The notes under the pieces were generated by a model, which was given only the letters and a program-made list of their open reading frames with translations, was not told where the DNA came from and did no database searches. Made by a program: the position numbers and the translations under genes. Of a stretch of 29,124 nucleotides of DNA, positions 17,934 through 29,124 are shown piece after piece. Source of the DNA: a virus. Positions within the stretch are counted from its first letter, which is position 1; each line of letters opens with the position of its first letter. Location of the stretch: positions 1-29,124 of IMG/VR virus record IMGVR_UViG_3300027749_004422; one strand, 5' to 3'.

Positions 17934-20813
17934 ATGCTGAACATTTGGACTAAGGCATCAGGTTATAGTTTTGGAGTTCTTGCAGAAGAACTTGCTGTGA
18001 ATATTCCATTGCCAGTGGCAAACGATACCGGAGTAAATTATAGTGTAATTTCGGGTAAGTTACCTGGTGGACTATATATTAAAGAAAAACACATTATCGG
18101 TAGTCCCTTCATTGTTGCATATTCTACTAAATTTGAATTTTGCATACGAGCATCTGCAAATGCTAGCAGCACTAATAGCACAATTGTTGGTGGTGCATTT
18201 GTTCCCACAACAGTTACTTCAGGAACATTCTTAGTTGGCATGAAATTATCGGGAGCCGGTATTCCAGCGGGAACATATATCACGTCCGATCATCACAACG
18301 GAACATTTGGGGTTAACACTACAGAAAATATTAATTCTGTCAATGTTACCGCAACTGGCTTTGCAGATCGAACATTCTTCATATCAATCGACAGTAACCA
18401 TTTTCCAACATTTATTACATCTGCAGGAAATTTACCCATTGGGCCCAATCAACAATTTTACACCACTGATCAAACTTATGTAGAATATCAGTTAGAGGTT
18501 ATAGATATAAGCATTGCAACAAATCGAGCATTGAATTTTTTTATAGCTAGTGGCGACGGAAGTTTGCCACCAGGTTTAACATTAAGTAATTCTGGCCTTA
18601 TTAGTGGATACATTTTACCTTTGCCAAAAATAACTACAAATGTTGGTTTAATGAGTGTGAATGATGTGGGAGGGAGTACCAACAGTTTTGATAGTTACCA
18701 GTACGATACTATAATGTTTGATTATAATATCCCAGCTTCGGTTAAACATTCACTAAGTTTAAATTATCAATTTAAAGTAACAGTAACCGACGGGGTTAAT
18801 AATGCTTACCGAATTTTTAAAATATTTGTTGCAGGAACTGACGAATTCCGAGCTGATGCAACTATTTTAGATGGTCAGGCAGATGGGTTTACTGCGGACA
18901 GTACATATGTAAGAAGTCCACAATGGTTAACTAACAGTAGTTTAGGAACATTTAGATCTAACAATTATCTCACAGTACCTGTAGCGTTGTATGATAACAC
19001 CGGGGTAACATTCCGAAAAGAACCAACTAATCACGAAACATATGCAGTAGCTTATCAAATATACGGTCTTGATAATATTATCACAAGCAATACTGTGACC
19101 ATAGACAATGTATCAGTTGCTCCAAAAATTGGACAGTGGTTCACACTTAATTACTATGTAGAAGGAGCATTGGACAACCTTTATCAAATAATACAAGTTG
19201 ATAAATTAACTTCTACACGATACAGATTAACACTGACGTCTAAATTATTAGTTAGTATTCCAAATAATACAGCATTTTACATAGGAACATTGTGCAGATT
19301 TCCAACTGGAATTAATTTTGATCCGTTGACCGGTGATTTATACGGAATGGTTCCGTATCAGCCCAGTGTGACAGAAAAGTTTACATTTACAATTACAGCA
19401 ACCCGAACTGGTGATAGTAGTCAAGAATTAGTCAGTACTAGCAAAGAATTTAATTTAATTATGCTAGGAAGTATTCATAGTCAGATTACTTGGATTAGTC
19501 CAAGTAATTTAGGAACTATTTCTGCAGACTATATTTGCACACTTAGATTGTTGGCCGAGACATCTGTAGCAGCTGCAACAGTTACATATACCGTAGTTAA
19601 AGGAAGTTTACCCCCAGGAATAAATTTAAAATTAGATGGTGAATTAGTTGGGATTCCAAATCAATTTTATAATGCAAAAACACACACCCTAGGGTTAATA
19701 ACTATTGACTCTGGCTCAACTACTTTTGATAGAAATACCACTACTATAGATCGAACATATACATTTAGTGTTGAATCTGCCGATCAATACGGGTATAGCG
19801 CAATTACTAAAGAATTTACGCTTACAATTGATTCACCTAACGATATTGTTTATAATAACATCATCGTGAGACCTTACCTAATTCCTGAACAAAGAAATAT
19901 GTTTAAGAGTTTTATTAATAACTCAACTGTATTCACGCCGTCGAGTATCTATCGACCAACCGACACAAATTTTGGTATACAAACATCACTGACTATGTTG
20001 GTATATGCTGGAATAGAAGCTCAATCAGCAGCATCAATTGTGGGTGCAATGGGACTAAACACCAAGCGTAAACGTTTTCAATTTAAAAGTATACAAAAAG
20101 CAATAGCTGTGGATCCTGTATCTAATGAGCCAGTGTACGAAGTAGTATACATAAAAATGATAGATCCCTTAGAGCCAAACGGAAAGCACTTGCCGTTATC
20201 AATTAACTCTGTAAATTCATCGGAAAAAATTACAGCAGATACAAGCAATTCACTTTGGCAAAAAGGTTTTGAAGTTCATAAATTATTAGACGGCTCTGGA
20301 AATATTATGTTGGATCCAATTACAGGCGAGCAAGTAAGAAATCCTACAACTATTGAACAAGCTGAATTAGATGGTCTAGCAATTAATGCACCGTTTTTTA
20401 ATCGTCCTGATTACAATATCACAGTAGACAGCACAGGATATCAAATCAATACTCCTAACCCCAACACGTATTTTCCTAGTAGTATTACAAATTGGCAAAA
20501 AAGAATTAGTACATCAATTAATAGTTACACGGTAGACGGAAGTCCTATATTAGCAAAAACCGAAAGAAATTATTTGCCGCTTTGGATGCGCTCTATTCCG
20601 TCAGGACAAAAGCAACAACTAGGATACATATTAGCTATACCACTATGTTTTTGTAAAGTTGGAACAGCAGATACTATTTTATTAAATATCAAGCATAGTG
20701 ATTTTGATTTTACCAAAATAGATTACACAATTGATAGATATACAATAACGTCGGCAGCTGGATATACCGACGATAAATATCTAATATTTAAGAACAACAG
20801 GATAACAGTATGA
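17934..20813 (+). CDS. structural protein with Ig-like (He_PIG) repeats
   Basis: A 959-residue protein starting ten bases after the previous stop with AAGG ahead of the ATG. Four putative-Ig motifs of the form [LF]P-x-G-[IL]-x-[FIL]...G-x-[IL]-x-G are visible near residues 43-60 (GKLPGGLYIKEKHIIGSP), 206-224 (GSLPPGLTLSNSGLISGYI), 455-478 and 556-580 (GSLPPGINLKLDGELVGIP). Near residues 80-140 there is one copy of the G-x-x-L-x-G-A-G-I-x-x-G-T beta module found several times in the giant protein. The last third is different: IIVRPYLIPEQRNMF, then YLPLWMRSIPSGQ, and an ending LIFKNNRITV. This ending recalls a conserved virion protein of marine T4-like phages, from memory. Ig-like domains on virions often bind surface sugars; the end may dock to the tail or baseplate. 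Confidence 0.75.
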   Translation: MLNIWTKASGYSFGVLAEELAVNIPLPVANDTGVNYSVISGKLPGGLYIKEKHIIGSPFIVAYSTKFEFCIRASANASSTNSTIVGGAFVPTTVTSGTFLVGMKLSGAGIPAGTYITSDHHNGTFGVNTTENINSVNVTATGFADRTFFISIDSNHFPTFITSAGNLPIGPNQQFYTTDQTYVEYQLEVIDISIATNRALNFFIASGDGSLPPGLTLSNSGLISGYILPLPKITTNVGLMSVNDVGGSTNSFDSYQYDTIMFDYNIPASVKHSLSLNYQFKVTVTDGVNNAYRIFKIFVAGTDEFRADATILDGQADGFTADSTYVRSPQWLTNSSLGTFRSNNYLTVPVALYDNTGVTFRKEPTNHETYAVAYQIYGLDNIITSNTVTIDNVSVAPKIGQWFTLNYYVEGALDNLYQIIQVDKLTSTRYRLTLTSKLLVSIPNNTAFYIGTLCRFPTGINFDPLTGDLYGMVPYQPSVTEKFTFTITATRTGDSSQELVSTSKEFNLIMLGSIHSQITWISPSNLGTISADYICTLRLLAETSVAAATVTYTVVKGSLPPGINLKLDGELVGIPNQFYNAKTHTLGLITIDSGSTTFDRNTTTIDRTYTFSVESADQYGYSAITKEFTLTIDSPNDIVYNNIIVRPYLIPEQRNMFKSFINNSTVFTPSSIYRPTDTNFGIQTSLTMLVYAGIEAQSAASIVGAMGLNTKRKRFQFKSIQKAIAVDPVSNEPVYEVVYIKMIDPLEPNGKHLPLSINSVNSSEKITADTSNSLWQKGFEVHKLLDGSGNIMLDPITGEQVRNPTTIEQAELDGLAINAPFFNRPDYNITVDSTGYQINTPNPNTYFPSSITNWQKRISTSINSYTVDGSPILAKTERNYLPLWMRSIPSGQKQQLGYILAIPLCFCKVGTADTILLNIKHSDFDFTKIDYTIDRYTITSAAGYTDDKYLIFKNNRITV

Positions 20814-21385
20814 CAAGCCAAATAAACTATTCAGCAATTAATGTAGCATACCCAGTAGCAGGCGTGGATAACAACAGCCAAGGGTTTAGAGACAATTTCA
20901 CAGCAATACAAGCCGGATTAGCCGAGGCATCCGCTGAAATCACACTCTTACAAACCAATGGGTTAGATGTTACTCAACCTGTTAATCAGTTACAAGGTAC
21001 AATATTCAACAATGGATTGTATTCACAATTTAATGGTGTATATTACAATGCTGGTACTGTTGGAGCAGGCGGTGCATTAATAAATGTAGACAACGGTCCT
21101 ATGCAAAAAGTAACGCTTTCGGCCAATGCAACTTTAACTTTTGAAAATTGGCCTGACGTTGGAATGTGGAGCACTATTAGGCTTGTATTGGCTAACAATG
21201 GAAGTCCGCGTGTTGCAACACTGGATACAACAAATTCAGGAGTATTAAAAACAGTTACCGGATGGCCGTATGGTACTAACCCAGTCACTGTATCTATTCC
21301 CACTACTGGAAAAATAGAGGTAATCGAAGCATGGACCGTCGACGGCGGCACAACTGTATATATAAAAAACTTAGGCCAATATTAA
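20810..21385 (+). CDS. structural protein with divergent shared N-terminal motif
   Basis: A 191-residue protein starting by an ATGA overlap with the preceding gene. Residues 4-35 (INYSAINVAYPVAGVDNNSQGFRDNFTAIQAGL) are a divergent form of the F-R-x-x-F-x-x-I motif seen at the start of three other structural proteins here; a short helix of AEASAEITLLQ type follows and could trimerise. The rest is beta-rich (LSANATLTFENWPDVGMWSTIRLVL, then a GTTVYI-like ending) and resembles small fibre-tip domains of phages. It closes the structural block. Virion role inferred. Confidence 0.75.
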   Translation: MTSQINYSAINVAYPVAGVDNNSQGFRDNFTAIQAGLAEASAEITLLQTNGLDVTQPVNQLQGTIFNNGLYSQFNGVYYNAGTVGAGGALINVDNGPMQKVTLSANATLTFENWPDVGMWSTIRLVLANNGSPRVATLDTTNSGVLKTVTGWPYGTNPVTVSIPTTGKIEVIEAWTVDGGTTVYIKNLGQY

Positions 21386-21615
21386 TGCATCCACTTTCTG
21401 GCAATTTATCAGAAATCAAAGACGGGGATCTTGAGACCAAGATCTTTGATCTTACCAAAAAATATTTCATGACAAGCAATCCTGGGGTCAAACAACAGAT
21501 AAGTTTGATGTTAGATACGTACAACGAAGAATTGAGCAAACGACGCCAAGAAACCCTAGCAAAAATGATGGAAAGTCGAGATAAAAAACTTGACAGTTTA
21601 ATTAAAGTCAGTTAA
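21385..21615 (+). CDS. small charged helical protein, function unknown
   Basis: A 76-residue protein. The ATG at 21385 overlaps the preceding stop as TAATG; a longer frame beginning at 21331 lies wholly inside the previous gene and adds an unlikely Arg-rich leader, so 21385 is preferred. The sequence (LSEIKDGDLETKIFDLTKKYF, then QQISLMLDTYNEELSKRR, ending DSLIKVS) is almost entirely predicted helix with heptad-like spacing, compatible with a coiled coil. A comparable short protein occurs in marine T4-like phages beside late genes, from memory. Its last codons contain a TTGACA box that may serve the next gene. I do not recognise a function; an assembly factor or transcription accessory protein are options. 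Confidence 0.7.
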   Translation: MHPLSGNLSEIKDGDLETKIFDLTKKYFMTSNPGVKQQISLMLDTYNEELSKRRQETLAKMMESRDKKLDSLIKVS

Positions 21616-21618
21616 AAT
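21590..21618 (+). promoter_or_regulatory. sigma70-type promoter, possibly leaderless
   Basis: TTGACA at 21590-21595, 17 bases, then TAAAAT at 21613-21618. The -35 box is a perfect match and the -10 matches five of six. The box lies in the last codons of the upstream gene (Leu-Asp-Ser). Transcription would begin around 21624-21626, on or next to the ATG at 21626, which has almost no Shine-Dalgarno. Confidence 0.5.
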
Positions 21619-21625
21619 ATAGGCT

Positions 21626-22135
21626 ATGCGCCTAGATAAATTTGGTAATCCTATTTTTAATACACAAGACATATTCAAATTCCTATACCAAGGAAAACTA
21701 ACCAACCTCAAAGATCTAACTGTGGATTATACAGAAGATATCAAACAGTTGGAACAAACAGCCGGACTTACATTTTCAAAATTCAACGATCAGTTAGATT
21801 CTATTAGTATAGAGGACTTTGATCAAGCACTGCAAAGTGACTGGTTTATGCCACCTGAATACAAAGATTTTGATGTAGAAGAATGGTGTCTTAACCGTTG
21901 CACAACTAAACAACAAAAAGAACGAGTATACGACGAAATGGAAGCATATCGTGATCGTAAGATGATCCCTTTGCTACAATGGACCAAACATTTTGTAGAT
22001 ACATGTAATGAAAACGGAATTGTTTGGGGTGTAGGACGTGGATCCAGCGTGGCCAGTTTTGTGCTGTATTTGCTAGGTGTACATCAAATAGATTCAGTCA
22101 AATATAATTTAGACTGGCAGGAATTCCTGAGATAA
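21626..22135 (+). CDS. stand-alone fragment related to DNA polymerase III alpha (DnaE/PolC palm start)
   Basis: A 169-residue protein. Residues about 108-169 match the start of the family C polymerase palm: a helix ending NENGIVWGVGRGSSVASFVLYLLGV, then IDSVKYNL and a final EFLR. In bacterial DnaE this region reads [33 protein letters not shown] and continues into the catalytic Asp-x-Asp. Here the protein stops exactly after FLR, so the Gly-Ser triphosphate-binding motif (residues 135-141) is present but the catalytic aspartates are absent. Residues 75-108 also resemble the helical region just before the palm. A polymerase is therefore excluded; a regulator, dNTP sensor or structural remnant is possible. 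The ribosome site is poor (AGG two bases from ATG). No downstream frame in 22136-22161 continues the domain, so this is a defined short protein and not an obvious frameshift. Confidence 0.7.
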   Translation: MRLDKFGNPIFNTQDIFKFLYQGKLTNLKDLTVDYTEDIKQLEQTAGLTFSKFNDQLDSISIEDFDQALQSDWFMPPEYKDFDVEEWCLNRCTTKQQKERVYDEMEAYRDRKMIPLLQWTKHFVDTCNENGIVWGVGRGSSVASFVLYLLGVHQIDSVKYNLDWQEFLR

Positions 22136-22161
22136 GTAGTAGTATAATTAAGGAGATTACA

Positions 22162-22440
22162 ATGGCTAATCAAAAAACAGGTATTTACAGAACAGCTAAA
22201 GGTCGTGAAGTAGACATGGGCAAACTAATTAATCAAAATGAGTTGCAACCAGCTGTGGGAAATATGAAGGTAAATGCTAGAGGCGACAAGTTAGGCGCTG
22301 GTGGCAAGATTATATCTTCAGGAATTCCAAGTCAAATAAATGCAAGCAGGCCTACGCCAGTGGCTGCACCAGTTGCCGAACCAGCGGTTGCACCAGGTAA
22401 AAAAGATGTATCTACTATGGATCCAGAAGGTAACGAATGA
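22162..22440 (+). CDS. small conserved phage protein with Ala/Pro tail, function unknown
   Basis: A 92-residue protein with a perfect AAGGAG ribosome site seven bases before ATG. The first 60 residues (YRTAKGREVDMGKLINQNELQPAVGNMKVNARGDKLG) form a conserved-looking basic block; residues 62-85 are a flexible Ala/Pro/Val tail. No membrane segment or catalytic motif is seen. I recall similar short proteins with the NARGD-LG-GGKI pattern in marine T4-like phages, annotated as hypothetical. Its stop overlaps the co-chaperonin start by ATGA, so the two are co-translated. A small virion or assembly protein is plausible. Confidence 0.75.
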   Translation: MANQKTGIYRTAKGREVDMGKLINQNELQPAVGNMKVNARGDKLGAGGKIISSGIPSQINASRPTPVAAPVAEPAVAPGKKDVSTMDPEGNE

Positions 22441-22835
22441 AAGTAACAGGAAAACTTATTCCAGTTCGTAATAATATCCTTATTACGGATATGAATTTTG
22501 GTGAGCAAATATCAAAAGGTGGCATTTTTGTTCTCAGCGATGATGGAAAAAGCGAAGGTGTTAAGCACCGATGGGGCCGTGTTTGGGCGATTGGGCCAGA
22601 ACAAGAAGACGTCTCTGTTGGAGAATGGATCCTGCTTGAGCACGGTCGGTGGACTCGTGGAGTCACAGTAGTTGAACAAGACGGTACTGAAATTACAATT
22701 CGTCGTGCAGATGTAAATGGAATTTTAATGGTGTCTGATGAAAAACCAGACGGCCTCGAATTAGGTAAGCATAGCAAAGTAGAGCATGCAACATTTGATC
22801 CGGCAACATTTTCAAGACCCAGTTTTGAACAATAA
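22437..22835 (+). CDS. GroES-like co-chaperonin (gp31 type)
   Basis: A 132-residue protein with the GroES layout: LIPVRNNILITDMNFGEQ (first strand), the mobile loop with KGGIFVLSDD that would contact host GroEL, WGRVWAIGP, VGEWILLEHGRWTRG (roof/loop part), and a C-terminal strand ADVNGILMVSD. T4 gp31 replaces host GroES so that GroEL can fold the large capsid protein; the same role is inferred here. Length exceeds both GroES (about 97) and gp31 (111): about 25 extra residues after the fold (GLELGKHSKVEHATFDPATF) look unstructured. It lies at the end of the structural cluster and is followed directly by a strong terminator, so it probably belongs to the late transcript. Confidence 0.85.
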   Translation: MKVTGKLIPVRNNILITDMNFGEQISKGGIFVLSDDGKSEGVKHRWGRVWAIGPEQEDVSVGEWILLEHGRWTRGVTVVEQDGTEITIRRADVNGILMVSDEKPDGLELGKHSKVEHATFDPATFSRPSFEQ

Positions 22836-22851
22836 TTAAAGTTGTTTGAGT

Positions 22852-22878
22852 AACAGGGCTATTGACTAGCCCTGTTTT
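22852..22878 (+). terminator. rho-independent terminator after the co-chaperonin gene
   Basis: A perfect 10-bp stem (AACAGGGCTA at 22852-22861, TAGCCCTGTT at 22867-22876) with the 5-base loop TTGAC, running into TTTT. It starts 17 bases after the co-chaperonin stop. The loop and the first stem base after it form the -35 box of the following promoter. Confidence 0.9.
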
Positions 22879-22890
22879 CACCTGTATACT
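22862..22890 (+). promoter_or_regulatory. consensus sigma70-type promoter for the replication operon
   Basis: TTGACT at 22862-22867, exactly 17 bases, then TATACT at 22885-22890. Both boxes match five of six consensus bases at ideal spacing. Expected start of transcription is near 22897, about 10 bases before the first gene of the operon and overlapping its AAAAGGAG ribosome site. The -35 box is the loop of the upstream terminator. Host-type boxes suggest early expression. Confidence 0.75.
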
Positions 22891-22907
22891 ACATAAAAGG
22901 AGAATCC

Positions 22908-23048
22908 ATGATTTTGCTAAATGCAGTATTAACTTTATTAGCTGTGTATTTTGCCAAAAAAGAATATGAATCTGGAAGAACCATATGGGCAATGTTTTGG
23001 GCATTTCTACTAGGCTGGGATGTTCATACACTGTTATCTGTCATATGA
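22908..23048 (+). CDS. small membrane protein (46 residues)
   Basis: ATG with an excellent AAGGAG seven bases upstream, stop TGA at 23046. The product begins ILLNAVLTLLAVYFAKKEY and continues with WAMFWAFLLGWDVHTLL: two hydrophobic segments, residues 2-16 and 26-37, around a short charged loop (KKEYESGR). It would be a two-pass inner-membrane peptide, or one segment plus an amphipathic helix. It is the first gene after the consensus promoter. No family is recognised. Strong ribosome site, tight spacing to the next gene and membrane-like composition argue that it is real. Confidence 0.7.
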   Translation: MILLNAVLTLLAVYFAKKEYESGRTIWAMFWAFLLGWDVHTLLSVI

Positions 23049-23069
23049 ACTACATATTGAGGAAATAAA

Positions 23070-23243
23070 ATGGAAATAGAAGTACAACCTAAAGATACAA
23101 GTCGTGGACATTTTTATGTCAGCCTTGCAAAAAGTGCAATTAGAATTTTGGCGGGCTTGGCACTTGTATATGGTTTGGTGTGGGAAGCTGGATGTTTCCT
23201 TATTTTAGCAGAAGTATTGGGTGTGGTTGAAGAGTTAGTGTAA
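23070..23243 (+). CDS. small single-pass membrane protein (57 residues)
   Basis: Starts at ATG 23070 behind TGAGGAAA; ends TAA at 23241-23243. A hydrophilic head (EIEVQPKDTSRGHFY) is followed by VSLAKSAIRILAGLALVYGLV, a hydrophobic run up to residue 53, and an acidic end (VVEELV). The pattern is one long or two short membrane helices. The -YVSLAKSAIRI- pattern is reminiscent of short hypothetical proteins in marine phages, from memory. The following gene starts on its stop codon (TAATG), which supports translation. Confidence 0.68.
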   Translation: MEIEVQPKDTSRGHFYVSLAKSAIRILAGLALVYGLVWEAGCFLILAEVLGVVEELV

Positions 23244-23380
23244 TGTGGAGAGTTAGGTACTATATGGTAGGCGGAACAAAGACAACAAAGTTGTTTCCTA
23301 CACTAACGGAAGCTACGTATTTTGTAGTGTATAAAATACGTTCTTGCGATGTTTACGAATTTTTAAAGGTTGAAAAATGA
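23243..23380 (+). CDS. small basic protein (45 residues), function unknown
   Basis: ATG at 23243 shares a base with the preceding stop; its own stop TGA at 23378-23380 overlaps the clamp-loader start by ATGA. Product: basic and aromatic (MWRVRYYMVGGTKTTKLFPTL, later YKIRSCDVYEFLKVEK), probably a small beta-alpha fold. No motif is recognised. Its perfect fit between two coupled genes is the main evidence that it is expressed, at least to keep coupling with the clamp loader. Confidence 0.65.
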   Translation: MWRVRYYMVGGTKTTKLFPTLTEATYFVVYKIRSCDVYEFLKVEK

Positions 23381-24291
23381 AGGAACTATGGGTAGAAAAA
23401 TACCGGCCGGCAACTATTGACGGTTACGTTTTTAGAGACAATCATCAACGAGAACAAGTCGAGTCTTGGATTAAACAAAAATCCATTCCGCATTTGTTGT
23501 TTAGCGGTAATGCTGGCATTGGCAAGACCACTTTAGCAAAGATTCTATTCAAGGAACTAGACCTCAATGATCTAGATGTATTAGAGATTAATGCCAGTCG
23601 AACAAATAGTGTCGACGATGTCCGTGACAAGATTATTAACTTTGTACAAATGATCCCGTTTGGTGATTTTAAAGTTGTTTTGTTAGATGAAGCTGATTAC
23701 TTATCGCCCAATGCACAAGCGGCATTGCGCGGTGTTATGGAAGAGTATCATACTACAGCACGTTTTATTCTCACATGTAATTACCCTAACAAGATCATTC
23801 CTGCATTGCATAGTCGATGCCAGGGTTTTCACATTGAAAGAGTTGATCTTGCTGAATTTACAGCTCGGGTTGCAACTATTCTTATGGAGGAAAAAATAGA
23901 GTTTGATCTTGATACATTAGATACATTTGTCAAAGCAACATATCCAGACTTACGTAAGTGTATCAACACAGTTCAAATGAATAGTCTTGACGGTACATTA
24001 CATACACCCGAGTCTGGGGACACTGGAGCTGCAGATTATAAAATTCGAATGGTTGAATTATTTAAAGCTGGTAAGATTGGAGAAGCTCGTAAATTAGTTT
24101 GTGGACAAGCTCGACCAGAAGAAATGGGTGATATCTATCGCTGGCTATATGATAATATTGAAATCTTTGGTGAAGAAGCATTACAAGACAAAGCAATTCT
24201 TATTATTAAACAGGGCCTTGTTGATCACACATTAGTTATTGATCCAGAAATTAATCTAGCGGCAACACTTATTCGATTGAGTCATCTGTGA
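23377..24291 (+). CDS. 44: sliding-clamp loader ATPase subunit (gp44 type)
   Basis: A 304-residue AAA+ protein. The N-terminus LWVEKYRPATIDGYV is the RFC/gp44 signature. Walker A is GNAGIGKT at residues 44-51, Walker B is VVLLDEADYL near 99-108, and the sensor/arginine-finger motif HSRCQ lies near 148-152. The C-terminal helical region (FKAGKIGEARKLV, then INLAATLIRLSHL) matches the collar domain of T4 gp44 (319 residues). The protein loads the gp45 clamp onto primed DNA using ATP. In T4 it works with small subunit gp62, whose gene usually follows at once; here a dCMP deaminase follows, and gp62 is not in the window. Start is fixed by ATGA coupling with the small basic gene. Confidence 0.93.
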   Translation: MKELWVEKYRPATIDGYVFRDNHQREQVESWIKQKSIPHLLFSGNAGIGKTTLAKILFKELDLNDLDVLEINASRTNSVDDVRDKIINFVQMIPFGDFKVVLLDEADYLSPNAQAALRGVMEEYHTTARFILTCNYPNKIIPALHSRCQGFHIERVDLAEFTARVATILMEEKIEFDLDTLDTFVKATYPDLRKCINTVQMNSLDGTLHTPESGDTGAADYKIRMVELFKAGKIGEARKLVCGQARPEEMGDIYRWLYDNIEIFGEEALQDKAILIIKQGLVDHTLVIDPEINLAATLIRLSHL

Positions 24292-24788
24292 AACAAAAGT
24301 TAAAAAAAGCGTACATGAAAACTGCAGAAACATTTGCAGAATTAAGTCATGCACGTAGGCTTCATGTTGGTGCTATTGTGGTCAAGGATGATCGTATCAT
24401 TAGTATTGGCTACAATGGTATGCCAGCAGGTTGGGACAACGATTGTGAAAATACTGTTTTTGTGTTAGGTAAAGAAGTAATCGACACCGACATGGTATCG
24501 TTAGGGTATACAAAAACAGATAATGGTAATTGGACGACACTTAAATCAAAACCGGAGGTATTACATGCAGAAACAAACGCAATCGCTAAGTTGGCTAAAA
24601 GTACTGAGTCTGGGGCTAATGCTACTATGTTTATTACTCATAGTCCTTGTTTGGATTGTGCCAAACTTATATTTCAGTCTGGGATTACTAGTGTGTTCTA
24701 CCGCGACTCTTATCGTAGCAAAGATGGAATACAATTCCTCACAAAATCAGGCGTAAAAGTAAAACAAATAGGAAAACAAAATGACTAA
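24288..24788 (+). CDS. cd: dCMP deaminase (zinc-dependent)
   Basis: A 166-residue enzyme of the cytidine/deoxycytidylate deaminase family. Landmarks: HVGAIVVKDDRIISIGYNGMPAGW, an upstream Cys in DNDCEN, HAETNAI with the zinc His and catalytic Glu, and SPCLDCAKLIFQSGI with the two zinc cysteines. It converts dCMP to dUMP, feeding dTTP synthesis for phage DNA. T4 Cd is 193 residues; this one is shorter at the C-terminus. The start is a GTG that overlaps the clamp-loader stop (GTGA); an ATG at 24315 would also keep the domain. It ends inside the next gene with an 8-base overlap. Function is close to certain; the allosteric dCTP response cannot be judged. Confidence 0.92.
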   Translation: MKQKLKKAYMKTAETFAELSHARRLHVGAIVVKDDRIISIGYNGMPAGWDNDCENTVFVLGKEVIDTDMVSLGYTKTDNGNWTTLKSKPEVLHAETNAIAKLAKSTESGANATMFITHSPCLDCAKLIFQSGITSVFYRDSYRSKDGIQFLTKSGVKVKQIGKQND

Positions 24789-25641
24789 ACGTATTTTAAT
24801 AATGGGACTACCGGGTGCTGGTAAAACATATCTTGCTCAAGCACTTAAAAAGTACCTTGAAACAAACGGCGATTTAATGAAAGTCAATCCCAGTCGAGTG
24901 ATGAACTATGAAGGTATACCAGGTCCTGGTTTTATGCGTGTAGGTGTTGATTGGTTCAATGCAGATGACATTCGTAAAAAGTATAACGATTGGGATTTTT
25001 CAAACGCAGGCCGTATTCGTCAAAGTTTGCGCATGTTTCAATTTGCTGTAGAGTGTACAGGTGAATATGTTATCTGTGACTTTGTTGCACCGTTAGTTGA
25101 GATGCGCAACAACTTCAAAGCAGATTGGACTATCTGGGTCGACACAATTAAAGAAGGTCGTTACGAAGATACCAACAAAGCGTTTATTCCGCCCGAAGTA
25201 TACGATTTCCGAGTTACGGAACAAAATTGCGAAAAATGGGCAGAGTTTATTGGGGAACATATACTAGCTGATCGTAGACGTCCTACATTCGATTGGCAAA
25301 AGGAAACTGTGCAAATGCTGGGACGTTGGCAACCGTGGCATGACGGCCACCGTGCATTGTTTGAACGATTGATAGCCAAGACTGGACAAGTAGTTATTCA
25401 AGTACGTGATGTACAAGGATGGCAAGGTAGCAATCCGTTCGAAGTAGCCAAAGTTAAAAGTTTTATCAAGCGTGATTTAGATCCATTGTATCAAGGACAA
25501 TATGAAATACAAGTTGTTCCTAACATTGTACACATCGGATGGGGACGCGGAGTCGGTTATACTAGCGGTGAAGAAACGTTTGATGAAACAATTACTAACA
25601 TTAGTGCTACTAACATTCGTAAAGAATTAGGTTTAAAATAA
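24781..25641 (+). CDS. P-loop kinase (APS-kinase-like) fused to HxGH nucleotidyltransferase
   Basis: A 286-residue two-domain protein. Residues 1-165 form a P-loop kinase: Walker A GLPGAGKT at 9-16, then FNADDIRKKYNDWDFS near 59-74 and ICDFVAP near 99-105, close in pattern to adenylylsulfate kinases (D-G-D-N-x-R, F-S, FISPY). Residues 175-286 form a cytidylyltransferase-type domain: GRWQPWHDGH with the HxGH motif at 187-190, and ISATNIRKEL at the end, which is the ISSTxxR-like motif of NMN and cytidylyl transferases. The order kinase then transferase is the reverse of NadR and recalls animal PAPS synthase. Candidate substrates are APS, a nucleoside, or a sugar-phosphate; none is provable. Last in the operon; its 3' end is duplicated downstream. 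Confidence 0.8.
   Translation: MTKRILIMGLPGAGKTYLAQALKKYLETNGDLMKVNPSRVMNYEGIPGPGFMRVGVDWFNADDIRKKYNDWDFSNAGRIRQSLRMFQFAVECTGEYVICDFVAPLVEMRNNFKADWTIWVDTIKEGRYEDTNKAFIPPEVYDFRVTEQNCEKWAEFIGEHILADRRRPTFDWQKETVQMLGRWQPWHDGHRALFERLIAKTGQVVIQVRDVQGWQGSNPFEVAKVKSFIKRDLDPLYQGQYEIQVVPNIVHIGWGRGVGYTSGEETFDETITNISATNIRKELGLK
25618..25641 (+). repeat. 24-bp duplication, copy 1 (native 3' end)
   Basis: This is the genuine end of the kinase-nucleotidyltransferase gene, coding R-K-E-L-G-L-K-stop. It recurs at 26325-26348 with 22 of 24 bases identical. Confidence 0.9.
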
Positions 25642-25671
25642 TTGCTAATTAGTTTTAACTATGACAAACAT

Positions 25672-25700
25672 TTAAAAATATCATAGAAAAAATTTATAAT
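25672..25700 (+). promoter_or_regulatory. candidate sigma70-type promoter of the inserted gene
   Basis: TTAAAA at 25672-25677, 17 bases, then a perfect TATAAT at 25695-25700. Expected start near 25707, leaving about 38 bases of leader. The AT-rich surroundings make chance matches easier, so confidence is moderate. Confidence 0.4.
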
Positions 25701-25714
25701 TTTCTTGATTTTTT

Positions 25715-25726
25715 GTATTTAAATAC
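25715..25726 (+). promoter_or_regulatory. perfect 12-bp palindrome overlapping a late-promoter-like core
   Basis: GTATTTAAATAC is a perfect palindrome. Its right part gives TAAATAC, whose core starts 25 bases before the ATG at 25745, the same distance as the other late-promoter candidates. It also lies just after the expected start from the TATAAT box, a position suited to an operator. Confidence 0.35.
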
Positions 25727-25744
25727 ATGATTATGAAGGCCAAT

Positions 25745-26329
25745 ATGAATCAAATAACAATTAAAGATCAAATAATATTCCTTCACGAATTTCTGCAAAC
25801 AGATATTGAAAAAGGAGTGTTTATAACCGGATCATCAATAACATACCTTATAGAATCCGAGTATAGGAAAGTATTGTGGACTCCAAATGATATAGATGTA
25901 TGTATCAACTCGCACGATTTCCAAGAAACACATAATAGATTACATGAACTACTAGCATCGAGATCAACAAAATGGGAAACCCTGACAACTACACCCGGCT
26001 ACACAAATAATAACTACTATATATCTGGGTTTGTCAAAGTTAGTTTACAAGGAACAAAAATAAATTATACTAGTCGTGTAGCATGGGCAGATTATAGTGT
26101 CTGTGCTATAATTAGTGATAGGCATCAAACAGTTACGCATGAACACACACGATCGGATATAGAGAATAAAATTCTTAGGCGTACAGGCCCGTTTAGAAAA
26201 AATGAAGCAGATTCTAAAGCATGGTTAGAAAAACGGTATCAATCTTATACTAGTAAAGGATTTTTAGACAACGATAAAATAGTTTGGAAACAAATACAAG
26301 AATTTATTAAAGAATCAGACTTACCGTAA
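25745..26329 (+). CDS. nucleotidyltransferase-fold protein, probable inserted cassette
   Basis: A 194-residue protein from the ATG at 25745, preferred over ATGs at 25727 and 25733 because GAAGG lies five bases before it. Residues 27-52 show the minimal nucleotidyltransferase signature: FITGSSITYLI with Gly29-Ser30, then PNDIDVCI with Asp49 and Asp51. A later strand (KINYTSRVAWADYSVC) would supply the third acidic position, and the ending (SKAWLEKRYQSYTSKGF) resembles other phage proteins of this fold, from memory. Substrate is unknown; nucleotide transfer to protein, RNA or a small molecule are all possible. It is flanked by a 24-bp duplication of the upstream gene's end and has its own promoter-like boxes, so it was probably acquired as a unit. 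Its stop codon lies within the second repeat copy. Confidence 0.7.
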   Translation: MNQITIKDQIIFLHEFLQTDIEKGVFITGSSITYLIESEYRKVLWTPNDIDVCINSHDFQETHNRLHELLASRSTKWETLTTTPGYTNNNYYISGFVKVSLQGTKINYTSRVAWADYSVCAIISDRHQTVTHEHTRSDIENKILRRTGPFRKNEADSKAWLEKRYQSYTSKGFLDNDKIVWKQIQEFIKESDLP

Positions 26330-26348
26330 AGAATTAGGATTAAAGTAA
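26325..26348 (+). repeat. 24-bp duplication, copy 2 (gene-end remnant)
   Basis: Reads R-K-E-L-G-L-K-stop in one frame, the same as copy 1; the two differences (GGT to GGA, AAA to AAG) are both synonymous. This copy is not translated in that frame now. It abuts the terminator at 26348, as the true gene end presumably once did. Confidence 0.9.
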
Positions 26349-26371
26349 AAAAGGGCCCCAGGGCCCTTTTT
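26348..26371. terminator. bidirectional rho-independent terminator
   Basis: A perfect inverted repeat, AAAAAGGGCCC, CA, GGGCCCTTTTT. Being A-tracted on one side and T-tracted on the other, it can stop transcription from the + strand cassette and from the minus-strand phoH, which converge here. Confidence 0.92.
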
Positions 26372-26399
26372 AATGACTATCTAAAATAGCAGGACTATT

Positions 26400-27131
26400 T
26401 TATTCTCCATAAACCGCTAACACCTCCTTCACGGCATTATGGCGTTCGATGTCACGAGCATCAAATTGAACTATGTCAATATGAGTCAATCCAGATTTCC
26501 CCGAGAGTAAGTTACAGAAATTTATTAAACCGTTATCATTCATACGGTCTGCTTGCGCTAAGTCGCCAGTTACCACCATCTTACTGCCTTCCCCTAAACG
26601 GGTTAACAGCATCTTCATTTGATTCACCGTAGCATTTTGCATTTCATCTGCGATAATGTATGCATTTTTAAATGTGCGGCCACGCATATAAGCAAGCGGA
26701 CTTATTTCAATAACACCTTCTTCTAACATGTTTGCTATGTCTTTTTGTTGATAATATTCTCCTAATACGTCAAATATAGGTCTTGTCCACGGTGCCATCT
26801 TTTCATTCAGCGTGCCTGGTAAAAATCCCAAATCTTCATCTACGGAAACGGCGGGTCTTGTCACAACGATTTTGTCAACTATTCCTTCCTGAAATAACTT
26901 TATACCATGTTGAACCGCTAGCATAGTTTTACCTGTGCCGGCTGGGCCGATAGCAAGAACAATGCTCTTGTGTTCGTCTTGAAGTTTTTGGAGGTATATT
27001 TTCTGATTAGAATTACGTGCTTGAATATTCACACGATTCTTCTTCTGAGGAAGATACGGCTGGAAATCAATTATGTTAACTTCTGATGTAAAACGCTTTT
27101 TCACTCTTTGTGTCGCTCGTTGTTTACTCAT
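26400..27131 (-). CDS. phoH: PhoH-family ATPase
   Basis: A 243-residue P-loop protein on the minus strand. Walker A is GPAGTGKT, followed by LAVQHGIKLF; RPAVSVDEDLGFLPG, the Walker B segment AYIIADEMQNATVNQMKMLLTR, and VVTGDLAQ are all standard PhoH motifs. The N-terminal 45 residues are basic and probably disordered. TAGGAG lies nine bases before the ATG. PhoH is very common in marine phages; bacterial relatives are linked to phosphate stress and RNA metabolism, and the phage role is not settled. It is the only large minus-strand gene here and ends at the bidirectional terminator. No clear phosphate-box is seen upstream; TATAAG in the 160-base gap is a weak -10 candidate. Confidence 0.93.
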   Translation of the reverse strand: MSKQRATQRVKKRFTSEVNIIDFQPYLPQKKNRVNIQARNSNQKIYLQKLQDEHKSIVLAIGPAGTGKTMLAVQHGIKLFQEGIVDKIVVTRPAVSVDEDLGFLPGTLNEKMAPWTRPIFDVLGEYYQQKDIANMLEEGVIEISPLAYMRGRTFKNAYIIADEMQNATVNQMKMLLTRLGEGSKMVVTGDLAQADRMNDNGLINFCNLLSGKSGLTHIDIVQFDARDIERHNAVKEVLAVYGE

Positions 27132-27259
27132 CTAGTTGTGCTCCTACTCTACTGGTTAAAGTAAGACTTATAGTGACCGCCCTGATAACTACAGAGGTCC
27201 TACACTATTATTTACACAATACACAGAATAATAAACTAATACGTTATGATTTTGAACCA

Positions 27260-27267
27260 GATAAATA
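27260..27267 (+). promoter_or_regulatory. candidate T4-type late promoter (GATAAATA)
   Basis: GATAAATA in the 161-base gap between the divergent phoH and the next + strand gene; identical octamer to the one ahead of the ErpA-like gene. Its TAAATA core starts 31 bases before the ATG at 27293. The rest of the gap (27132-27259) holds only the phoH ribosome site and no other clear element. Confidence 0.5.
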
Positions 27268-27292
27268 AGTATAAGATCACCTAGGACACCAA

Positions 27293-27871
27293 ATGTACCA
27301 CGATATTTTAGACGTTATACGCAACATACAAGATCTGTATGAAAACAACAGCAGCCTTGCTGTATTGAAGGATTTTGAACGTGTTTTAGAAGAAACAGAC
27401 ATGTATGTTTATGAAAACTGGGACGAGGGTGAATTAGCTTACGGCCCTAAAGTAGATCGTCACTGGATTACAGCTGGGTTTATGTGGGAGCATAGTAAGA
27501 TGCCTAACCCTACTGCTGCTAAACGCCTAACAGAATTAGGCTGCAAAGTTAAGTATCAAAAAAGTCAGTTAATAGAACCACGTAAAATACGTACTCCTGA
27601 AGATATCCGTCCTAATAGTAAGAAAGGCAAACTAGATCGCAAACCTATATGGATTGTAGAAATACAAATGCCTAAGAAAGTAGCATTTGACATCTATAAA
27701 GGTTATATGGACAAGATGAAAAATGATTACAAAGATAGTAAACCTACCGAGGCAGCTCCTCCAGGTGCTCCGGCAGCACCAGCAGGTGGGGCGCCAGCAG
27801 CTCCGGCAGCGCCAGCAGCACCAGCAGGTGGAGCACCGGCTGCACCATCGGGCGGAGGAGCACCTGTATGA
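27293..27871 (+). CDS. conserved phage protein with Gly/Ala/Pro repeat tail, function unknown
   Basis: A 192-residue protein with TAGGA six bases before the ATG. Residues 1-150 are an ordered, charged domain (DILDVIRNIQDLYENNSSLAVLKDFERVLE near the N-terminus; GPKVDRHWITAGFMWEHSKMPNP in the middle; PIWIVEIQMPKKVAFDIYKGY later). Residues about 155-192 are a low-complexity tail built from GAPAAPA and PAGGAPAAP units. The tail uses GC-rich codons unlike the rest of the window. I do not recognise the domain with confidence. It heads a late operon with the next protein and the endolysin, suggesting a virion or assembly role. Confidence 0.72.
   Translation: MYHDILDVIRNIQDLYENNSSLAVLKDFERVLEETDMYVYENWDEGELAYGPKVDRHWITAGFMWEHSKMPNPTAAKRLTELGCKVKYQKSQLIEPRKIRTPEDIRPNSKKGKLDRKPIWIVEIQMPKKVAFDIYKGYMDKMKNDYKDSKPTEAAPPGAPAAPAGGAPAAPAAPAAPAGGAPAAPSGGGAPV
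27752..27866 (+). repeat. GC-rich Gly/Ala/Pro coding minisatellite
   Basis: Imperfect repetition of ggtgctccggcagcacca-type units, coding the GAPAAPAGG tail. Such tracts change length by slippage, and may also vary between assemblies. Confidence 0.75.
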
Positions 27872-28602
27872 ACATAACAGAAAGTTTAAGAGCTAATGAC
27901 CTACAACATTTAGTTAAAAAAGTTTTTGAAATTGATAGTTTTAAAAGCAAAGTTGGTAATGACGAGGATGTTGTTGTATTGAGTTTCACTGTTGATCAAG
28001 AAGATCCAGCTAAAGATTTAGAAAACTTTTTTGAGATGGGTTATAACTTTGTATTGGATGCAGATTGCACTCCGGGTGAGTTAGACGACGGCCAGTATCG
28101 TGTTTATGTAGAACTAGAACGAGGACGTAAAGTTGCTGAACAAGTATTTGAACTTGTTGAAGGTATTAAAAAAGTAACCGGATTAGAAGAACTAAGATTT
28201 CGATATTTTAAAAGTTTTAAAAGTAAATTAGCTTCATTAGAAAATTTAGAATCCGCAATACCAAAAAGTCCAGACGACTATAAAATTGCTACCCAGGAAG
28301 ACAATTTAAATAATTTTAGTAATTTTTTTAGTAATAGCTATGCCGATACATTAAATGTAATCGATGAAAGCATTTCATTTACAAGACCTTATAGTGGAAC
28401 TGTTTCTTTTGACATTATTAATAGCGGAAGTAAAAACGAAATATACAATAGTATCAAAGGTCCAATAGTATTAGAAGGTAAAGACATGGCCGAAGTTATG
28501 TTCTTAACTAAGGTTATTGGTAACTATAATATTACAAAGATAGGTAAGACTTTTATATTTGAAAATAAAGGTTGGGCCGTTGCACTAGAAAGGAAAGCAT
28601 AA
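27868..28602 (+). CDS. conserved phage protein, function unknown
   Basis: A 244-residue acidic protein beginning by ATGA overlap with the preceding gene. Two parts are visible. Residues 1-115 (MNITESLRANDLQHLVKKVFEIDSFKSKVGNDEDVVVLSF, then YRVYVELERGRKVAEQVFELV) look like an alpha/beta domain. Residues about 130-244 (DYKIATQEDNLNNFSNFF, SISFTRPYSGTVSFDI, ending KGWAVALERKA) form a second beta-rich part. No catalytic motif, signal peptide or membrane segment is seen. Coupling to the genes on both sides points to a shared late role. Not recognised with confidence. Confidence 0.72.
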   Translation: MNITESLRANDLQHLVKKVFEIDSFKSKVGNDEDVVVLSFTVDQEDPAKDLENFFEMGYNFVLDADCTPGELDDGQYRVYVELERGRKVAEQVFELVEGIKKVTGLEELRFRYFKSFKSKLASLENLESAIPKSPDDYKIATQEDNLNNFSNFFSNSYADTLNVIDESISFTRPYSGTVSFDIINSGSKNEIYNSIKGPIVLEGKDMAEVMFLTKVIGNYNITKIGKTFIFENKGWAVALERKA

Positions 28603-29124
28603 TGAGTTTTGAATTTGATTTTACACAAGAAAAGTTAGAACAGATTATTGGAAAAAATCCGTATATTGAACACTGGTACGAAGCACTGTGTCAAATATTA
28701 CCCGACTACGATATTAATACAGTACCGCGTGTTGCAGCTTTTTTAGCACAAACTGCTCACGAGTCTGGCGGATATAAAGCTATTAAGGAAAACTTAAACT
28801 ACAAGGCAGCAAGTCTTTGTAAAGTTTGGCCCAAGTATTTCCCTAACATAGATGTTGCAAATCACTATGCACAACAACCAGAAAAGATTGCCAACAGAGC
28901 ATACGCCAATCGCATGGGCAACGGCCCAGAAGAGTCAGGTGATGGTTGGAAGTTTTGTGGACGTGGGCTTATACAGCTAACTGGCAAGGATAACTATACC
29001 AAATATGCACAAAGTTTAGAAATTAGCCTAGACGAAGCAAGCGAACATTTGACAACATTTGAAGGTTGTGTACAAAGTGCCGCTTGGTTCTGGGAAGCAA
29101 ACAATTTAAATCAATGGGCTGACA
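28602..29124 (+). CDS. GH19 (chitinase-type) endolysin, 3' end outside window
   Basis: Starts by a TAATG overlap and runs off the right edge after 174 codons. The family pattern is clear: VPRVAAFLAQTAHESGGYKAI with the catalytic Glu54, ENLNYKAASL with Glu63 a candidate second acid, WPKYFPN, then the highly conserved EKIANRAYANRMGNG and SGDGWKFCGRGLIQLTGKDNY. GH19 lysozymes of phages cut peptidoglycan; chitin is an unlikely substrate. No signal peptide or membrane segment is present at the N-terminus, so release would need a holin not seen here, or the enzyme could be carried in the virion. The near-universal FRGRG is FCGRG here, a minor change. Confidence 0.9.
   Translation, partial: MSFEFDFTQEKLEQIIGKNPYIEHWYEALCQILPDYDINTVPRVAAFLAQTAHESGGYKAIKENLNYKAASLCKVWPKYFPNIDVANHYAQQPEKIANRAYANRMGNGPEESGDGWKFCGRGLIQLTGKDNYTKYAQSLEISLDEASEHLTTFEGCVQSAAWFWEANNLNQWAD

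Follow-up and report, generated by a model that had tools for sequence, protein, structure and literature searches.

Prophage e14 and phage 21 integrate at the 3′ end of icd, and the gene is thereby provided with a substitute end. For T4-type phages, mobile regulatory cassettes, the so-called PeSLs, have reportedly been proposed (Arbiol 2010; Comeau 2014; as cited in PMC4503421). The free-standing GIY-YIG endonucleases of T4 (Seg proteins) are involved in intronless homing, with co-conversion of flanking sequences (review, PMC2988022), and homing endonuclease genes have also been described as marking the borders of exchanged phage segments, near or next to conserved genes (PMC10448857). The gain and loss of auxiliary genes by phages is constant, yet a case in which the empty site, a donor-type allele and both borders can all be seen is rare.

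Here we describe a locus that offers the borders, the empty site and the donor-type allele, and whose design recurs in at least five further distinct cases. It is found in a viral sequence of 29,124 nucleotides, a single metagenomic record of 29 kb that we call the window. In the reading we favor, with a probability of about 0.82, the window would be the product of a scarred allele replacement, in which the resident kinase-nucleotidyltransferase gene was exchanged for a donor allele bringing a passenger gene behind it. As in the icd system, incoming DNA would have given a gene a new end while the old end was left downstream; unlike there, neither an integrase nor an att core is seen and nearly the whole gene, rather than just its end, would have been replaced. 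With the intronless homing of the Seg proteins the locus shares the replacement of a phage gene by a donor allele plus the neighboring gene, and also the presence, directly behind the kinase gene of the window's relatives, of an endonuclease family (phrog_314). It differs in that the passenger carries no recognizable nuclease and in that the right junction lies in the coding end of the replaced gene, where a readable remnant remains. Compared with segments bounded by homing endonuclease genes (PMC10448857), the unit consists of one gene and one passenger, and its border can be placed at codon-level resolution. Scarred replacement would be a variant of homing-type gene conversion; in the open-access literature searched, we found no description of gene-end scars of this type.

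The locus is marked by a direct repeat. The last 24 nt of the kinase gene (near copy, 25618–25641, plus strand, CGTAAAGAATTAGGTTTAAAATAA) recur at a spacing of 707 nt (far copy, 26325–26348, plus strand, CGTAAAGAATTAGGATTAAAGTAA) with 22 of 24 positions matching, and both copies encode RKELGLK followed by a stop. This repeat, pointed out in an earlier note on this DNA, stands up well to controls: 300 shuffles of the 3 kb downstream gave a maximum of 19/24, and at the other kinase loci examined the best downstream match to the gene's own last 24 nt was 17/24, except for one (L019) where an 18/24 match turned out to be a true remnant. The longest exact run common to both copies is 14 nt. The two differences are synonymous, as the note had also observed in arguing for a diverged allele; however, a random single change would be silent with a chance of about 0.21 and both with 0.04, so that synonymy taken alone is a weak argument for separate alleles. 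Unrelated ends reading RKELGLK mostly show 3–7 differences, against the 2 that separate the far copy from the near one, and the far copy matches the gene ends of L270 and L243 exactly over 20–21 nt. Naming the source allele of the remnant from its own letters was tried and abandoned, since these 24 nt are 1–3 changes away from many alleles.

Relatives were collected from an IMG/VR scan using as queries the window kinase protein, other kinases of the family and PhoH. The earlier note had proposed to look for phages in which the kinase gene is followed directly by the terminator, without the insert, and such phages do exist: the order kinase stop, terminator and convergent phoH gene is found in L260, L089/L242, L002/L173, L167, L154–L156, L254, L255, L263 and L296. 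The best of these empty-site relatives, L260, is collinear with the window at 20595–24840 and 26325–29122, with 84–87% nucleotide identity. Its blastn match to the window resumes exactly at 26325 and runs through the terminator and phoH, and the block of L089 likewise begins exactly at 26325 and continues through both. Since L260 resumes at this very base with collinear flanks, the far copy is, to judge from the alignment, the end of the original gene in its original position beside the terminator, much as the note had placed it. It corresponds to a scar formed by the last 8 codons, stop included, of the displaced resident gene, and its first base, 26325, marks the right junction.

The surroundings are also of the resident type. 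A terminator-like hairpin at 26348–26371 (fold −16.1 kcal/mol, z −2.9) separates the convergent kinase and phoH genes, and is found at the same position, directly after the kinase stop, in L089, L260 and L002. The phoH-like gene (26400–27131, minus strand; PF02562, E 3e-72) shows amino acid identities of 90% with L089/L242, 86% with L260 and 76% with L002. Upstream of the swap lies a dCMP deaminase gene (24288–24788, plus strand; PF00383, E 9e-22), the stretch 24543–24840 being 86.6% identical to L260. The same site is available in two states: occupied in the window, L019 and L355–L359, and empty in L260, L089, L002 and others.

The intact kinase-nucleotidyltransferase gene of the window (24781–25641, plus strand) encodes 286 aa with APS-kinase-like P-loop and cytidylyltransferase-like domains (phrog_10255 “kinase,” E 6e-43), and its history appears to be a different one. 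Its product is 93.4% identical to that of L169 and 93% to those of L001/L002/L167, and only about 80% to those of L260 and L089. At the nucleotide level, identity to L260 is 78.5% over 24952–25641 vs. 86.8% after 26325. Moreover, the L260 protein has an N-terminus about 23 aa shorter, and nothing in L260 can be aligned to the extra N-terminal part. The kinase is thus close to L169/L001/L002 but the phoH gene to L089/L260, and on this comparison the kinase gene is a separate allele, with a long N-terminus, and not the vertical counterpart of that of L260. Against a swap it may be noted that L002 and L167, which are other phages, already have a long-N allele in their phoH slot. Across the family, two N-terminal forms (window 24781–25100 and relatives) differ by ~23–30 residues after the P-loop region in otherwise collinear phages.

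The donor type is represented by L169, another phage in which a long-N allele occupies a different genomic setting. It matches the window unbroken over 24777–25726, a stretch that takes in the kinase gene with the near copy, its stop codon and 85 nt of 3′ flank (25642–25726, plus strand, 85% identical to the L169 kinase 3′ flank), and whose last base immediately precedes the inserted gene's first ATG. The flank aligns to L169 with a score of 101, the next best among 286 kinase loci being 26 and the best shuffle 32. Sequence of the donor type, comprising the kinase allele and its 3′ flank, then lies within resident-type surroundings, as in co-conversion of flanking sequence. That the near and far copies belong to different alleles, as the earlier note maintained, is borne out by the comparison of L169 with L260. 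The note had, however, a cassette alone being inserted and had it arrive from the allele of the far copy; the far copy is the resident one, and the near copy is the one that came in, with essentially the entire kinase gene, the 85-nt flank and the extra gene. In L169 the kinase gene precedes rubrerythrin-like and rubredoxin-like genes (names from reading of the sequences). These two genes and the 85-nt flank are missing from L001 (L169 4862–5560 vs. L001 from 3862 onward), though both sides match, as would be the case if a block made up of a promoter and two genes had been cleanly gained or lost behind one and the same kinase.

On the left, the passage from resident (L260-type) to donor-type sequence falls within 24777–24840 (plus strand), since L169 homology starts at 24777 and L260 homology extends to 24840. 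Sites match either parent up to about nucleotide 51 of the kinase gene, and only L169 from there on. A homologous exchange within the conserved first ~60 nt of the gene is plausible here. At the right junction, inside the last 8 codons, microhomology or end repair could have operated, and the microhomology might lie at CGTAA, which supplies the stop codon of the inserted gene; this stop (26327–26329) does fall within the far copy, as had been noticed before. The homologous recombination between alleles put forward in the earlier note is then plausible at the left end only. As a separate observation, the dCMP deaminase gene of the window ends out of step with that of L260 (24765–24788), with a TAA stop inside the kinase gene, unlike L260 and L002, in which a TGA stop overlaps the kinase ATG; this is possibly a second small scar.

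Putting these elements together, the ancestor would have been L260-like, with a dCMP deaminase gene, a short-N kinase-nucleotidyltransferase gene, the terminator and phoH. A donor allele of the L169 type, with its own 85-nt flank and the extra gene, would have taken the place of the resident gene, through the two exchanges just described. Replacement of the kinase gene as a whole would have kept it intact, with the extra gene travelling as a passenger, and the last 24 nt of the resident gene would have been left as an untranslated scar ahead of the resident terminator. As trigger we propose a double-strand break, located at the 3′ end of the kinase gene and probably made by a homing endonuclease of the family found behind the kinase in relatives. 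The empty site, the two alleles, the donor-type flank and the resident-type right side come directly from comparison with relatives; from these we infer that the swap in the window was a single transfer event, and that breaks at the 3′ end of the kinase gene drive such swaps.

The same architecture is found in five further distinct cases (L019, L355/L356, L357, L358 and L359), each time with a homing endonuclease gene ahead of the remnant. In L019, the order is an intact kinase gene, a homing endonuclease ORF (phrog_314, E 1.8e-12; PADLOC HEase, 8e-7), a 75-aa ORF, a 76-codon remnant of a second allele, the terminator and phoH. This remnant is 61% identical to the intact kinase copy and clearly represents a different allele; the block of kinase, endonuclease and ORF also occurs in other phages, in other settings. 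In the remaining four cases, the kinase and homing endonuclease genes are followed by a 37–39-nt remnant of the kinase end, which differs in protein from the intact end (e.g., SATKIRKELGLK-stop vs. the intact SGTAIRKSMGLK-stop). L358 and L359, which come from different samples, are 98–100% identical through most of the C-terminal part of the kinase and the endonuclease, with the similarity breaking off at the remnant, where each has its own resident end. An empty site is also available for L357, in L295, which matches its flank at 89.5%.

A profile of the last 36 nt, scanned over 286 loci, found remnants only in the loci with this design (28–42 bits), the next best match reaching 12 bits and the reverse-strand control 18. 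When the endonuclease alone was used as query, all 15 loci at ≥70% identity had a kinase gene directly upstream. Two other candidates were discarded: L326, whose kinase and phoH genes lie 685 nt apart, shows no scar but only an ORF for a small membrane protein and a dCMP deaminase gene located after the kinase, and L082, which matched a degenerate end-plus-terminator pattern, is unrelated. In L355 (1907–2158) and L358 (3612–3857), the downstream small-protein ORF starts inside the kinase remnant and out of frame with it, so that a new N-terminus seems to have arisen from the scar. Between L357 (1–1174) and L019 (557–1729), the 3′ part of the kinase is 95–100% identical and the endonuclease genes behind it only ~80%, a pattern consistent with a crossover between the kinase end and the endonuclease.

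That five other cases have scars at this one spot, each preceded by a homing endonuclease gene, suggests break-driven conversion, a possibility that the earlier note, which assumed plain allelic recombination, had not considered. In the window, whose insert is free of a recognizable nuclease, the nuclease may have come from a co-infecting phage, its gene may have been lost, or the recombination may have been nuclease-free. A broader, tentative proposal, which we consider possible and no stronger than that, is that the kinase-nucleotidyltransferase 3′ end might be a general docking site in environmental phages. The endonucleases of some relatives would cut the conserved end (around ISATKIRKELG); on repair of the break, with any donor allele as template, whatever lies behind that allele would be brought in, including metabolic genes that are not nucleases, with a scar of the last 8–13 codons (longer in L019). 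If so, the nuclease would drive the exchange of auxiliary genes in trans. Through its link with an endonuclease family, the driver of the swaps can be put to the test.

Other explanations must be considered for the repeat and the insert. A short direct repeat bordering a gene-sized insert, with just 2 of 24 positions differing, recalls the target-site duplication of a small mobile element that landed in the gene end and whose 24-bp duplication later acquired two substitutions. Such an element would have left its own sequence right behind the near copy, yet the 85 nt found there are the native kinase 3′ flank of L169, continuous with the gene through the stop codon, which strongly argues against this model. 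The last base of the near copy is that of the stop codon, the repeats are not identical, no transposase, integrase or terminal inverted repeat is seen at the insert, and the parallel loci carry two plainly different alleles. We consider a duplication of this kind very improbable, as the earlier note already had on other grounds. The same low probability applies to an assembly chimera of two phage genomes from one sample: a single metagenomic record with two alleles would fit it, but assembly k-mers are probably longer than the 14 nt of the longest exact run between the copies, the genes in the stretch of kinase allele, flank and insert are complete, and independent assemblies show the same design, with L355/L356 and L358/L359 coming from different samples.

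More attention is deserved by schemes in which DNA is exchanged in other ways. Shuffling of PeSL-type promoter/terminator cassettes, by recombination between similar intergenic regulatory regions and with no need of a nuclease, would account for the common 85-nt flank, with its promoter-like box, that precedes different genes in the window and in L169, and for a slot that ends in a terminator. Its junctions should lie in promoter or terminator hairpin motifs; the right junction at 26325 lies instead in the kinase coding end, outside the intergenic hairpin, and the promoter is putative. The flank does contain a TATAAT-like hexamer (25695–25700), the −10 box that the earlier note ascribed to the inserted gene, but this stretch is AT-rich and has many promoter-like matches (11 vs. 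5.0 expected by chance). The box was also discarded as a sign of an independent origin of the insert, given that the flank holding it belongs to the donor kinase allele. Altogether, cassette shuffling seems to us rather unlikely. A two-step history, in which an earlier homologous swap brought the long-N allele and its 3′ flank and the extra gene was added or exchanged later, the scar stemming from the first event or from both, can be entertained as a lesser possibility. The contrast between L169, where the kinase-plus-flank block is followed by rubrerythrin, and L001, devoid of both, indicates that what follows the flank is exchangeable, and no phage with the kinase, the flank and this exact insert appeared among the loci found. 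A single transfer, for its part, explains all the features with fewer steps, and the transfers of cassette plus allele in L358/L359 show that joint transfer happens.

As regards the passenger in the allele replacement that we favor, the inserted gene (25727–26329, plus strand; possible ATGs at 25727, 25733 and 25745) would encode 194–200 aa. Its protein gave no significant family match, and no nuclease match in Pfam, PHROGs, NCBIfam or PADLOC; relatives were found neither in IMG/VR nor in the PDB, and none that was significant among plasmids and phages. The sole relative, also among all ORFs of the fetched loci, is encoded in a Chitinophagaceae genome (L316, GTDB), with a weak identity of 38% over 55 aa. 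This protein belongs to DUF6932 (1e-22) and aligns with the inserted one over GS...PNDIDVCIN (GSS...PNDIDVCI in the window), a common stretch that suggests a nucleotidyltransferase fold. The assignment made in the earlier note can then be kept as tentative, the DUF6932 profile hitting the window protein below cut-off (E 0.08–0.14) and a single-sequence structure prediction giving a pLDDT of 35. The inserted gene is AT-richer than the adjacent ones, with a GC3 of 0.23 vs. 0.28–0.35.

From a wider perspective, the region 23377–27131, from the clamp-loader gene to the terminator and phoH, is a slot of variable gene content, and many relatives (L096–L104 and others) have nothing in it. In others it contains dCMP deaminase, ferredoxin-like, sulfotransferase-like, nitrilase-like or kinase genes (apart from dCMP deaminase and kinase, these names come from sequence reading). 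The swap described here is one change of this slot, caught with its scar, and recent gene gains could be searched for through this signature, in which a new gene is followed by a diverged copy of a gene end. The genes of the window include baseplate-wedge-like, structural, clamp-loader, PhoH and dCMP deaminase genes, none of them decisive for kinship with T4. Beside the structural genes, a 169-aa ORF (21626–22135) matches a short “DNA polymerase” family (phrog_11127, E 2e-39), and may represent a split or trimmed subunit.
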